DNA from: Gammaproteobacteria bacterium
GTDB lineage: Bacteria; Pseudomonadota; Gammaproteobacteria; Arenicellales; JAJDZL01
Length of the DNA: 64,000 nt
Direction: 5' to 3'
Assembly (NCBI GenBank): GCA_022823625.1
Contig: JAJEHQ010000037.1
Coordinates: 62,001 to 126,000, forward strand
Shown: one piece after another, positions 29,110 through 34,136 of the stretch
Numbering within the stretch: the stretch's first letter is position 1
Layout of the letters: every line of letters starts with the position of its first letter
Notes under the pieces: model-generated
Seen by the model: the letters and a program-made list of their open reading frames with translations, nothing else
The model's database searches: none
Told to the model about the DNA's origin: nothing
Program-made: the position numbers and the translations under genes

Positions 29110-30516
29110 CTAGTGTGCAAAGCTCCGAACGTCAGTTACTTGACCATTGACTGCAGCCGCGGCGGCCATTTGCGGTGACATCAGTAGCGTTCTCCCATTT
29201 GGACTGCCTTGACGACCAATGAAATTTCGATTGCTGGTACTGGCGGAAATTTCATTACCTTCCAACCGGTCTGGATTCATCGCGAGGCACATGGAGCAGC
29301 CAGGTTCTCGCCATTCAAATCCAGCATCAATGAATACTTCATGTAATCCTTCACTTTCGGACTGTGTTGCAACTTGGCGGGAGCCTGGTACTACAATCGC
29401 CCGCACATGCCCCGGAACTTTCTGTCCTTTGGCAACAGTGGCTGCCGCTCGCAAGTCCTCAATGCGCGAGTTTGTACAACTGCCGATAAATACGACATCA
29501 ATTTTTACACCGTTCATCGATTGACCGGGTTTCAGGTTCATGTGTCGATAAGCTAGTTCTGCTGTCTGTCGTTCGCCATCGGGCAGTAATGTCGGATCTG
29601 GAAGCGATTCGTCAATTCCTACACTCTGTCCAGGATTGATTCCCCAGGTTACATGAGGGGCGACTTGCTCAGCGTTAATCTGAATTTCATCGTCATATCG
29701 GGCTTCCTGATCTGATTTGATTGTTTCCCAGTACTGGAGAGCCCGTGTCCAGGCCTCCCCGCTTGGTGCATACGGACGTCCTTCCAAGTACGCATAGGTT
29801 GTCGAGTCAGGGTTAACGTAACCAATTCTTGCGCCACCTTCAATTGACATATTACAGACTGTCATACGCTCTTCCATCGTCATCGCCTCGATGGTGGAAC
29901 CACAGTACTCATAGGCGTAGCCAATTCCGCCTTTCACACCAAGCTTCCGAATTACGTGCAGAATGACATCTTTAGCAAAAACGCCGGTTTGAAGGTTACC
30001 GTCAATTTGTACCTTTCTCACTTTGAGAGGGTCCATGCTCAAGCATTGGGTGGCTAGCACGTCACCGACTTGAGTGGTGCCAATGCCAAATGCCAGTGTC
30101 CCAAATGCACCATGTGTGGATGTATGAGAGTCGCCGCAAGCCACGGTCATACCTGGATGAACCATACCCTGTTCCGGGCCCATCACATGCACGATTCCCT
30201 GCTCAGCAGAGCCCACGCCAAAATACCGAATTTTGAACTCATCGGTATTGTCGTGCAGTGCTTGTGCCATGGCTTCCGCCTGTGCGTCGCGGTAGGGACG
30301 GGACTGATCAGTTGTCGGAATGATATGGTCGACAGTGGCTACCGTTCGGTCGGGAAACAGCACGGGCAGTCCTCTTTCACGAAGCATGTCGCAAGCCTGA
30401 GGGCTTGTAACTTCGTGAATCAGGTGCAGTCCGATAAACAGCTGGTGTTGACCGGTTTGCAATTGACACACCGTGTGCTTGTTCCAGATTTTGTTGTATA
30501 GCGTACCGACAGCCAT
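29110..30516 (-). CDS. leuC: 3-isopropylmalate dehydratase large subunit
   Basis: A 468-residue aconitase-family protein. The [4Fe-4S] ligand cysteines are in GSCTNSR and EPGCSMC, and [12 protein letters not shown] and [13 protein letters not shown] are intact. Starts [14 protein letters not shown] at an ATG with GAGGAG upstream, and is followed by leuD after ten bases. Standard length. Confidence 0.96.
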
Positions 30517-30825
30517 GGGTTGCTCCTCAAATTGCCATTACATAAAGACAATACTGTTGCATATGCTTTATTTCGTAAAAACGCACATTTTACCCGACCA
30601 CAATGAATAATTTGACGAGGCTGTTTGAAGTGTTTCATTCAAGAAAATACACATTGTTGCATGATTGATCTTTGGTATTTCTTTTTGTGTGAGTAATGTT
30701 GGCAGAAGAAATCAACAGAATAATTGAAACAGTAACATTTAATGCTTAATAAACAAACAAATAAAGATGGATTATGGCAATACAATGTATGAATAAAAAC
30801 TCATGCTACTAGGAAAAAATATCTC

Positions 30826-30853
30826 TTGAAAAATTGCAACTCGGTATTATTCT
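30826..30853 (+). promoter_or_regulatory. Candidate sigma70 promoter of the small membrane peptide
   Basis: TTGAAA (30826-30831), 16-base spacer, TATTCT (30848-30853). It would give a leader of about 90 bases before the 28-codon gene. The rest of the leuC-to-30952 spacer (436 bases) is AT-rich and shows no gene. Confidence 0.35.
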
Positions 30854-30952
30854 ATACACAAGTCAAAGGACGAGTCACGAGCGATTCAGTTAATCGAAAT
30901 CAACTCGGAAATAGACGAGTTACTTACGAAACATATACGGAGGAAAACTTAG

Positions 30953-31039
30953 ATGTTTCAGAAAATTCATGATAGAGTTGGAATTGCCTTTATCGGTGCG
31001 GTGGCGGTAATTTTTATTATCGTGAACCTGGTCGGATAA
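30953..31039 (+). CDS. 28-residue single-span membrane peptide
   Basis: A short frame preceded by a strong ribosome site (GGAGG nine bases before the ATG). The product starts MFQKIHDRVG, continues with a hydrophobic stretch of about 16 residues rich in Ile, Val and Ala, and ends NLVG. The positive residues at the N side suggest insertion with the N-terminus in the cytosol. I do not recognise the family. It is followed 52 bases later by a DUF1127 gene in the same orientation, and both precede one terminator at 31464, so they may share a transcript. Short length means the call rests on the ribosome site and composition. Confidence 0.6.
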   Translation: MFQKIHDRVGIAFIGAVAVIFIIVNLVG

Positions 31040-31091: not shown

Positions 31092-31424
31092 GTGAACAAA
31101 GTGACCAATCTTAATCAAAATACAATTGATATCCGTCCATATCAACGGGCGAAAAGGTACATAATTATCGGGAATGCAATTGGCCGAGTCCTAACACAAT
31201 TAAATGAAGCTAGAATTCGACGCCAAACCATTCGAGAGCTCCAGGGATTGACTGATGCTCAGCTTGAAGACATCGGTATTCCGAGATACGAAATTCGACG
31301 TGCGGTAAATGCTAGACTAATCCGCAGTGCGAATACTGAACAGGGAAGGAATACTCGACCGCAAAGGCAGTCGAATTCCAGCCAGATTAGGTCTGCAAAT
31401 TATGAGAGGAAGTTAGCAGCCTAA
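31092..31424 (+). CDS. DUF1127 small basic protein
   Basis: A 110-residue protein whose middle part (about residues 43-75) is a DUF1127/YjiS domain: RQTIRELQGLTDAQLEDIGIPRYEIRRAV. The C-terminal tail is rich in Arg, Asn and Gln. Some DUF1127 proteins bind RNA and influence RNA turnover or phosphate/stress responses; the role here is not known. Start is GTG at 31092 or GTG at 31101; neither has a strong ribosome site. Confidence 0.8.
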   Translation: MNKVTNLNQNTIDIRPYQRAKRYIIIGNAIGRVLTQLNEARIRRQTIRELQGLTDAQLEDIGIPRYEIRRAVNARLIRSANTEQGRNTRPQRQSNSSQIRSANYERKLAA

Positions 31425-31463
31425 CGAAAGAATTGATCTAGTAGCTTTATCCTCCTACGATTT

Positions 31464-31492
31464 GGCCGTCAGCAATGGCGGCCTATTTTTTT
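31464..31492 (+). terminator. Rho-independent terminator after DUF1127
   Basis: Eight-pair stem GGCCGTCA / TGGCGGCC with one G-U pair, closed by a GCAA tetraloop, then TATTTTTTT. It lies 40 bases after the DUF1127 stop. Confidence 0.9.
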
Positions 31493-31958: not shown

Positions 31959-33008
31959 GTGTCTGGAAGTTCAGACGAAAACACACCAACGAAAAAGAGT
32001 ATCCGCGCGAATGTCCACACAGATTACTTCGAAATTCGGTTTCAAACTCAGGAACAGTTCAAATCGATCTTTAAACTCGCTTTCTCAGAGCGGATACTGT
32101 CATATTTTGATCTTGACACGATTCAGCCTGAAAGTACTCATTGGGTGAGGACGGAGCCAGAACGACTCAGTGAGCGTAGAGCTGACCTGGTTTTGTCAGT
32201 TGTACTCAAATCTGGTGATGAAGCTAATGTCGTCATCATCGTTGAGCATAAAAGCACTCCCGACCAGGGACTGATGGAGCAGTTGAATCGCTATCACGCC
32301 ATTTGTTCTGAACAGGGCAACAAGTTCATCATGCCGGTTGTAGTGTATCACGGGAAGCAACGTAGCTATCCAAAATCATGGGAGAGCTATCATGACTATT
32401 TGAAAACAATCTATCCTCCAGAATTGATCAATCTTTGTGCCAGTAGCATACAGAATTTTAAGCCAATAGTGGTTAACTTACGCGACCAGGCGACTTACAA
32501 GAGACTGTCATCTTTACCATTAGCAACCGGCCTGTCGCTGAAATTGATGGCAGAGGTTTGGGAAGCGAGCCTGGAGACATTTACCGAACTCACAAATAGT
32601 GCGATGGCACTGCAAAGTCAAGAGCGCTTCGAACTGATCACCCAGTCAGGTCTCTACTTGAGAGGTGCACGTTCGGAATCATTTACAATGAATGAAATCA
32701 AGAAAGTTGTTGAAGATAGAAATGTAGGAGACGAAATTGTGGAAAAGATCAAGAAAGAGTGGCTCTGGATCACAGAGCCCGGCACCGTAGGCGGCGCTTA
32801 CTATCAAGGTCGCAACGAAGGACAAATTGAAGGTCGGCAGGAGGGTTGGCAGGAAGGTGTGAAAGAAGGTCGGGAGGAAGGTGTGAAAGAAGGTCGGGAA
32901 GAGAAGAGTTATGAGGTTGCAACGAAAATGATTGCAGATGGAATGACTACTCAAAAAATCAGCGAAATTACAGGATTAAGCATCGCTCAGATCAATGCGT
33001 TGCGCTAA
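31959..33008 (+). CDS. Rpn-family PD-(D/E)XK nuclease / putative transposase
   Basis: A 349-residue protein of the recombination-promoting nuclease (RpnA, PDDEXK-type) family. The catalytic core is Asp76 in ERRADLVLS, and Glu96-x-Lys98 in IIVEHKST, followed by EQLNRYH. The middle holds YHGKQRSYPKSW typical of these proteins. A low-complexity segment near residues 286-317 repeats the unit EG(R/V)xEG, including an exact 24-base tandem repeat of GAAGGTGTGAAAGAAGGTCG type, before a small C-terminal helix-turn-helix-like end (MTTQKISEITGLSIAQINAL). GTG start with GGGAGG. Some Rpn proteins act in phage defence or recombination. A broken copy of its 3' end lies at 33735-34136. Confidence 0.8.
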   Translation: MSGSSDENTPTKKSIRANVHTDYFEIRFQTQEQFKSIFKLAFSERILSYFDLDTIQPESTHWVRTEPERLSERRADLVLSVVLKSGDEANVVIIVEHKSTPDQGLMEQLNRYHAICSEQGNKFIMPVVVYHGKQRSYPKSWESYHDYLKTIYPPELINLCASSIQNFKPIVVNLRDQATYKRLSSLPLATGLSLKLMAEVWEASLETFTELTNSAMALQSQERFELITQSGLYLRGARSESFTMNEIKKVVEDRNVGDEIVEKIKKEWLWITEPGTVGGAYYQGRNEGQIEGRQEGWQEGVKEGREEGVKEGREEKSYEVATKMIADGMTTQKISEITGLSIAQINALR

Positions 33009-33734: not shown

Positions 33735-34136
33735 TGGAATCAATTACAATAAATGGAGATTAAGAAAGTTGTTGAAGATTAAATTGCAGGAGACTAGGTT
33801 GTGGTAAAAATCAAGAAAGAGTGGCTCTGGATTACAGATCCTGGCACTGTAGGTGAGGCTTACCAAAAAGGTCTGAAAGATGGACGAATTAAAGCCCGGC
33901 AAGAGGCCCGGCAGGAAGGTCAGCAACAGATGAGTTATGAAATTGCTGCGAAAATGATTGCAGATGGAATGACTACTCAGAAAATCAGCGATTTTACAGG
34001 GTTAAGCATCGCTCAGATTGATGCGCTGCGCCAAATTCAAGAAATCATCCGCAGGTTTTTTCTGTCTGATTCAATATTCTTCAATCTTGCTCGACAGAAA
34101 TTTGGATTGAGTACTGAGAAAAATGATGCGCTGTAA
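33735..34136 (+). pseudogene. Broken second copy of the Rpn nuclease 3' end
   Basis: The stretch from about 33735 matches 32680-33060 at nucleotide level, including the KKEWLWITxPGTVG segment, the MTTQKIS...GLSIAQIxALR end, and about 50 bases beyond the first copy's stop. The frame is broken by a stop after VVED and a shift just before 33801; from there it is open for 111 codons because the first copy's TAA is CAA here. The EG-repeat segment is shorter and diverged (ARQEARQEGQQQ). It has no nuclease core. The transposase remnant lies between the two copies. Confidence 0.78.

Follow-up and report, generated by a model that had tools for sequence, protein, structure and literature searches.

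In the window (the whole 64,000-nucleotide stretch of gammaproteobacterial DNA analysed here), a gap of 575 bases separates leuC (start at 30516, minus strand; assigned by NCBIfam as 3-isopropylmalate dehydratase large subunit) from a DUF1127 ORF (31092). Within this gap lies a plus-strand ORF, 30953 to 31039, that runs from ATG to TAA and encodes the 28-residue product MFQKIHDRVGIAFIGAVAVIFIIVNLVG. Its short N-terminus, with K, H, and R, is followed by one hydrophobic span. From 5′ to 3′, the features of the locus are as follows:

30789 to 30804, plus strand: palindrome ATGA-N8-TCAT, a predicted LysR-type regulator site, conserved in peptide-bearing loci
30826 to 30853, plus strand: sigma-70–like promoter TTGAAA-N16-TATTCT (9 of 12 matches)
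30939 to 30943, plus strand: Shine-Dalgarno sequence of the peptide, GGAGG, nine bases 5′ of the ATG
30953 to 31039, plus strand: single-span membrane peptide of 28 amino acids (profile matches, conservation, pN/pS)
31092 to 31424, plus strand: DUF1127 protein gene (PF06568, 41.1 bits against a cut-off of 23.3)
31450 to 31455, plus strand: UCCUCC, an anti-Shine-Dalgarno–like 3′-UTR element, conserved in related loci
31464 to 31492, plus strand: intrinsic terminator (hairpin 31464 to 31483 with eight pairs, six of them G-C, then a T-tract; supported by folds)

These features very probably make up a single module, ordered as palindrome, promoter, peptide (cistron 1), DUF1127, UCCUCC, and terminator. 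The sequence-only reading had pointed to the GGAGG-led ATG and its single hydrophobic span, to the long intergenic placement in front of a DUF1127 gene, and to a terminator behind that gene, all of which are borne out here. The 3′-UTR UCCUCC, the palindrome, and the LysR link described below go beyond that reading. From comparison with genome G002, GTG 31101 may be the true DUF1127 start. The window peptide had zero matches in Pfam and zero in PADLOC-DB, and the copy in genome G004 gave nothing at cut-off in Pfam and nothing in NCBIfam; the family looks unannotated.

The region 3′ of the operon carries an Rpn-family nuclease/transposase gene (31959 to 33008; TIGR01784, 59.1 bits against a cut-off of 52.1). 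By eye, a shorter ORF at 33801 to 34136 has C-terminal sequence in common with it and may be the remnant of a second Rpn-family copy.

A lack of conservation in relatives had been named as the result that would speak against the peptide; we found it in all six genomes examined of the genus. A DUF1127 protein is likewise encoded in all six, each time just 3′ of a peptide copy, and the other genus copies are also preceded by GGAG or GAGG. The G002 copy is three residues shorter, at 54% identity. The eight genus copies give 28 pairs, of which 2 are identical, 14 have pN/pS values of 0.23 to 0.42, and 12 have values of 0.61 to 0.77, all 12 involving one of two diverged G003 copies. Synonymous positions differ widely at low pN/pS; therefore, it is the protein itself that has been kept, and, by this comparison of sequences, the ORF at 30953 to 31039 is a conserved coding sequence. 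In G005, the nearest genome, identity extends to 97% across all 287 bases of the region, and thus the G005 pair alone proves nothing. DNA similarity over the region reached 4 of 41 genomes. On these grounds, the ORF almost certainly encodes a real, translated membrane protein.

Genome G003 has two copies of the module (G003:C1:84000-85500 and 2473500-2475000), whose peptides are identical and whose 3′ ends are nearly so; the DUF1127 protein of the second is the shorter as called (67 versus 109 amino acids). A third peptide copy, at 3331247, has no DUF1127 gene nearby, a palindrome one mismatch off, and one CCTCC 262 nt after the peptide start. At 61.9 bits, it is the best-scoring G003 copy on the genus profile, being also among the six sequences from which that profile was made. 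Thus, the peptide can exist without a DUF1127 gene in cis.

The pairing of peptide and DUF1127 extends beyond the genus. In an unbiased search of the order with a protein profile of the peptide, 18 of 109 genomes matched at E 0.1, some of them by chance. Outside the genus, all seven matches with E up to 0.012 adjoin a DUF1127 gene, as does one of the six weaker ones. The order matches in G016, G034 (C31), G040 (C50), G069 (C232), and G026 (C151) were set aside as chance or as another family. We also scanned all of the 106 DUF1127 matches listed, which come from 52 of the 109 order genomes, using a profile of genus peptides only; the stretch scanned opens 450 nt ahead of the DUF1127 start and closes 60 nt past it. 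At 5 bits, a peptide lies upstream of 35 of the 106 loci (28 of 99 outside the genus), against 0 of 106 on the antisense strand, 0 in shuffled sequence, and 3 of 106 downstream; two of these three are peptides that belong to the following gene of a tandem. At 3.5 bits, there were 38 upstream matches, against 2 antisense and 3 downstream of 106, and 0 shuffled. A hydrophobicity filter drops G108 and leaves 37 peptide-bearing loci in 34 genomes, 7 of them the genus loci used to build the profile. Note that these loci are related, and the counts are not independent events. Relatives have the peptide core [KR]-x-G-x-A-[FY]-[IV]-G-A in common, and G10 is invariant among 24 hand-picked, aligned diverse sequences.

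Two of the rejected order matches belong to another type of small ORF, MNF[WF]..WS[DE]LS.W.RVGL followed by a hydrophobic span (G034:C31:39873-39926 and G026:C151:12153-12200). These ORFs occur in two families, are not listed beside DUF1127, and may represent a family of small membrane proteins in their own right.

Farther afield, the pairing thins out. Among 369 genomes sampled from the class, five had a profile match: the window's own, two judged chance, and G321 and G201, which belong to another order and carry the peptide directly 5′ of DUF1127. Both of these genomes have peptide, DUF1127, palindrome, and UCCUCC together. The two class-level positives, L159 and L160, were identified through the peptide profile search; approached from DUF1127, none of 29 class-level loci examined among 46 matches listed was judged peptide-bearing, the best score on a wide profile being 4.0 bits (L179, judged not peptide-like). 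The 398 genomes of the phylum sample gave two matches besides the window's genome, both judged chance; the class and phylum matches so set aside, as chance or another family, are G366, G200, G736, and G628. Likewise, none of 30 phylum-level DUF1127 loci among the matches listed, several of them near-copies of one another, had the peptide (best score, 1.0 bit). Two of the phylum-level loci (L217 and L203) have an unrelated hydrophobic ORF upstream of DUF1127, and none of the 10 DUF1127 loci L022 to L031, all taken from named genomes, had an upstream hydrophobic ORF above the scan cut.

Transcription of the module would start at about 30860, which puts the palindrome centre at about −64, where LysR activator sites usually lie. 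The TTGAA of the promoter is aligned in seven of the eight genus copies. Promoter-like sites on both strands of the region number four against 4.2 expected, a chance level that also covers the minus-strand sites at 30878 and 31145. The palindrome was first seen as a shared element in upstream alignments. It is exact, and 113 to 149 nt before the peptide start, in 31 of the 36 peptide-bearing loci that have at least 120 nt upstream (one shorter locus of the 37 was left out). By comparison, it occurs in 0.7% of shuffles, at 1 of 37 loci downstream, and at 4 of 69 peptide-less loci. Three of these four are G072 and the first tandem genes of G024 and G063, which were counted as peptide-less and probably have diverged peptides. 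Counted over the window by itself, the motif does not stand out (5 found versus 2.37 expected).

A divergent, adjacent GcvA-like LysR gene was found by tblastn, which replaced an initial, overly strict regular-expression test (9 of 35), at 21 of the 35 peptide-bearing loci with at least 300 nt (two of the 37 were left out). One such protein, from G032, scores 339.9 bits on the GcvA model NF008352 (cut-off 288). The same kind of gene stands at 39 of 68 peptide-less DUF1127 loci; therefore, the LysR link is to DUF1127 in general, and seems to hold across the order. In the genus, the LysR orthologue is present in all six genomes (56 to 58% identity) at a place not adjacent to the operon. The palindrome lies within 300 nt upstream of this unlinked gene in five of the six, G003 having no exact copy there; these sites were looked for once the motif was already fixed. 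In a genome-wide pattern search allowing zero or one mismatch, G000 and G005 each had only two places, the operon and the LysR gene, and across the six genomes, 10 of 11 places were the operon or the regulator gene (overlapping strands merged). The pattern was written from known sites, and their perfect scores are partly by construction. With up to two mismatches, the pattern found 6 to 11 places per genome versus 0 to 5 for a reversed control. The presence of the palindrome at both the operon and the unlinked LysR gene speaks for a single trans-acting regulator of the two. LysR control of the operon is likely, with the regulator predicted to bind the palindrome.

At the other end of the module, TCCTCC falls no more than 70 nt from the DUF1127 stop on the sense strand of 29 of the 37 peptide-bearing loci, against 0 of 37 antisense and a shuffled mean of 1.6, and at 6 of 68 peptide-less loci. 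The eight peptide-bearing loci without UCCUCC include all four of family f8. The genomes G321 and G201 carry ATCCTCCTCC after DUF1127. Over 26 loci, CCUCC is predicted to be unpaired with a mean probability of 0.85, versus 0.46 for other 5-mers; the window element, at 0.61, is the lowest of the 26. In the folds, the motif is, by eye, mostly followed by a terminator hairpin, and the window 3′ UTR folds with z = −1.98. The UCCUCC region does not pair more strongly with its own peptide ribosome-binding site (−8.3 kcal/mol) than with swapped sites (−9.1), nor with its own DUF1127 site (−8.2 versus −8.4 kcal/mol), and thus gives no indication of cis-control through such pairing. Longer stretches of the window give −14.0 kcal/mol with the peptide ribosome site, a value that stands without a control. 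The simplest reading of the element, which we favor by a small margin, is that of an anti-Shine-Dalgarno 3′-UTR RNA.

In G002, the operon terminator is immediately followed by a group II intron match (RF02001; L125:1213-1401, 66.7 bits against a cut-off of 32). To the eye, the corresponding place in G004 looks similar, and G001 has a short similar start; the Rfam scan of L118 and L119 gave no RF02001 match.

The module resembles, by analogy, two alphaproteobacterial arrangements: the CIN1 locus, whose CcsR RNAs carry CCUCCUCCC, and VtlR regulation, in which the AbcR RNAs pair with ribosome sites. In the CIN1 type, as described for ccaF1-CcsR1-4 of Rhodobacter sphaeroides, a DUF1127 gene is followed by small RNAs and a Rho-independent terminator on one transcript (PMC10253847). 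Like this cuckoo RNA locus, the window has a DUF1127 gene (PF06568) with a CCUCC-type element 3′ of it on the same strand, the UCCUCC at 31450 to 31455. Unlike CIN1, it has just one UCCUCC after the stop codon and ahead of the terminator, in place of tandem CUCCUCCC hairpins, and a membrane peptide in front together with a palindrome. Two or more CUCCUCCC motifs do follow DUF1127 at the phylum-level loci L226, L218, and L209, which we infer to be alphaproteobacterial and which have no peptide; the palindrome occurs at 1 of 30 phylum-level loci among the matches listed. We do not class the module as CIN1, because the tandem CUCCUCCC is absent here and the CIN1-like loci are without the peptide.

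In Brucella and Agrobacterium, the LysR-type activator VtlR/LsrB is described as controlling DUF1127 genes and the AbcR small RNAs (PMC12595884, PMC7486931). As in that regulon, a LysR-type regulator, DUF1127, and a regulatory RNA would be connected here. The box given in those accounts is GCAT-N3-TG-N3-T, whereas ours is ATGA-N8-TCAT, and here protein and RNA element would share one predicted transcript; a membrane peptide goes unmentioned in the parts of those accounts used for this comparison (PMC12595884, PMC7486931). The VtlR box itself has one match at 30659 to 30671, with 16 in the whole window versus 13.9 expected. At L159 and L160, CAATGCAGC, just 5′ of the peptide ribosome site, matches the VtlR motif CAATGCAGCCATGCA (PMC12595884) over its first nine letters; because it lies inside the presumed transcript, coincidence is likely.

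Two further comparisons concern single parts of the module. Element order (short 5′ hairpin, UCCUCC, terminator) is like that of suhB/MmgR (RF00519). The Rfam scores are 19.2 bits for the window and up to 24.8 for the three loci that matched among 18 scanned (L118, L119, and L057), against a cut-off of 41, so the element is not a member; no Rfam family reached cut-off for the window 3′ UTR. In Sinorhizobium meliloti, a 29-residue uORF upstream of duf1127-1 is described as controlling that gene by attenuation (PMC12218461), and our short ORF, of similar size, also sits just 5′ of DUF1127. That uORF needs a C-rich start, which is absent here, the two being compared by description only (PMC12218461). 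Across open-licence full-text literature, we found no description of a peptide-DUF1127 pair.

Our comparisons of genomes demonstrate that the peptide is conserved and under selection, that it is linked to DUF1127, and that the palindrome, the UCCUCC, and the regulator gene accompany it. The explanation that we prefer is a LysR-activated operon that provides a membrane partner for DUF1127 together with an anti-Shine-Dalgarno 3′-UTR RNA, and we give this explanation as a whole a probability of about 0.6; the odds of the several explanations overlap, and their total may differ from one. A GcvA-like LysR regulator would bind ATGA-N8-TCAT at about −64 and switch the operon on. One transcript would carry the peptide, DUF1127, the UCCUCC segment, and the terminator. 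The peptide would span the inner membrane, N-terminus on the inner side, and use a set of conserved small residues (G10, A12, G15, and A16) to dock the DUF1127 protein, made beside the membrane-inserted peptide, or a membrane kinase or transporter on which DUF1127 acts. The 3′ end would be released as a small RNA and pair with Shine-Dalgarno sequences of target mRNAs. Partnership with DUF1127 at the membrane is the most tentative of these parts.

A less probable but possible role is that the peptide regulates some other membrane protein on its own, sharing its expression with DUF1127 without being the partner of DUF1127. The lone third G003 copy (61.9 bits, palindrome one mismatch off) would fit such a role, as would the precedent of other small membrane proteins that act on kinases, such as MgrB on PhoQ (PMC11707872). 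Against it, all seven of the stronger non-genus order matches adjoin DUF1127 (one of six among the weaker), as do both accepted class-level matches. It is improbable that the ORF serves as a cis-acting leader that tunes premature termination before DUF1127 in the style of S. meliloti duf1127-1, despite the similar position and size of that 29-residue uORF. The first ten codons here hold 2 C in 30 bases, whereas the S. meliloti uORF is described as needing a C-rich start, and scrambling its codons 17 to 24 is reported to be harmless (PMC12218461), whereas the hydrophobic span here has been kept as protein. A pN/pS of 0.23 to 0.42 in 14 of 26 informative genus pairs, conservation of the span across families, and the persistence of a G003 copy without DUF1127 also tell against a leader. 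An attenuator is not our leading view because C-rich codons are missing and conservation is at the protein level.

The sequence-only reading had left two roles side by side, a small regulatory membrane protein and a type I toxin-like peptide. Conservation, synteny, and selection uphold a small membrane protein in front of DUF1127 and the shared terminator, and the toxin half finds no support. Length, the single hydrophobic span, and the strong Shine-Dalgarno sequence do resemble type I toxins, yet a toxin paired with an antisense RNA antitoxin is very improbable: promoter-like sites are at chance level, and thus nothing points to an antisense RNA; the peptide is conserved beside DUF1127 and the palindrome in several bacterial families; and the window peptide has no PADLOC-DB or Pfam match. 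Scarcely credible at all is a chance ORF inside a conserved RNA leader. The 97% identity of G005 over the whole 287-base region would suit one, but the protein is kept while synonymous sites diverge, and the peptide is found in other families where a DNA search finds nothing.

What we favor, a LysR-activated operon with a membrane partner for DUF1127 and an anti-Shine-Dalgarno RNA, bears on a protein family for which published reports diverge. The Salmonella DUF1127 protein YjiS is described as loosely held in the inner-membrane fraction, the account giving no evidence of RNA binding (PMC11707872); DUF1127 proteins of Agrobacterium tumefaciens and E. coli are reported to bind the kinase PhoR (PMC12501420); and the Rhodobacter protein is reported to bind RNA and help mature the CcsR RNAs (PMC10253847). 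A conserved membrane peptide just 5′ of DUF1127 would link the membrane and RNA roles and provide a testable partner. It is possible, if doubtful, that the locus is a previously unrecognised gammaproteobacterial cassette in which three different regulators arise from one LysR-controlled transcript: a membrane peptide, a DUF1127 protein that binds RNA or a kinase, and an anti-Shine-Dalgarno RNA. The peptide would then tether DUF1127, and possibly RNA turnover, to the inner membrane. Such a peptide would further suggest that the alphaproteobacterial connection of LysR, DUF1127, and regulatory RNA has a compact gammaproteobacterial form, and an unannotated peptide family becomes testable as part of a gene-control circuit.
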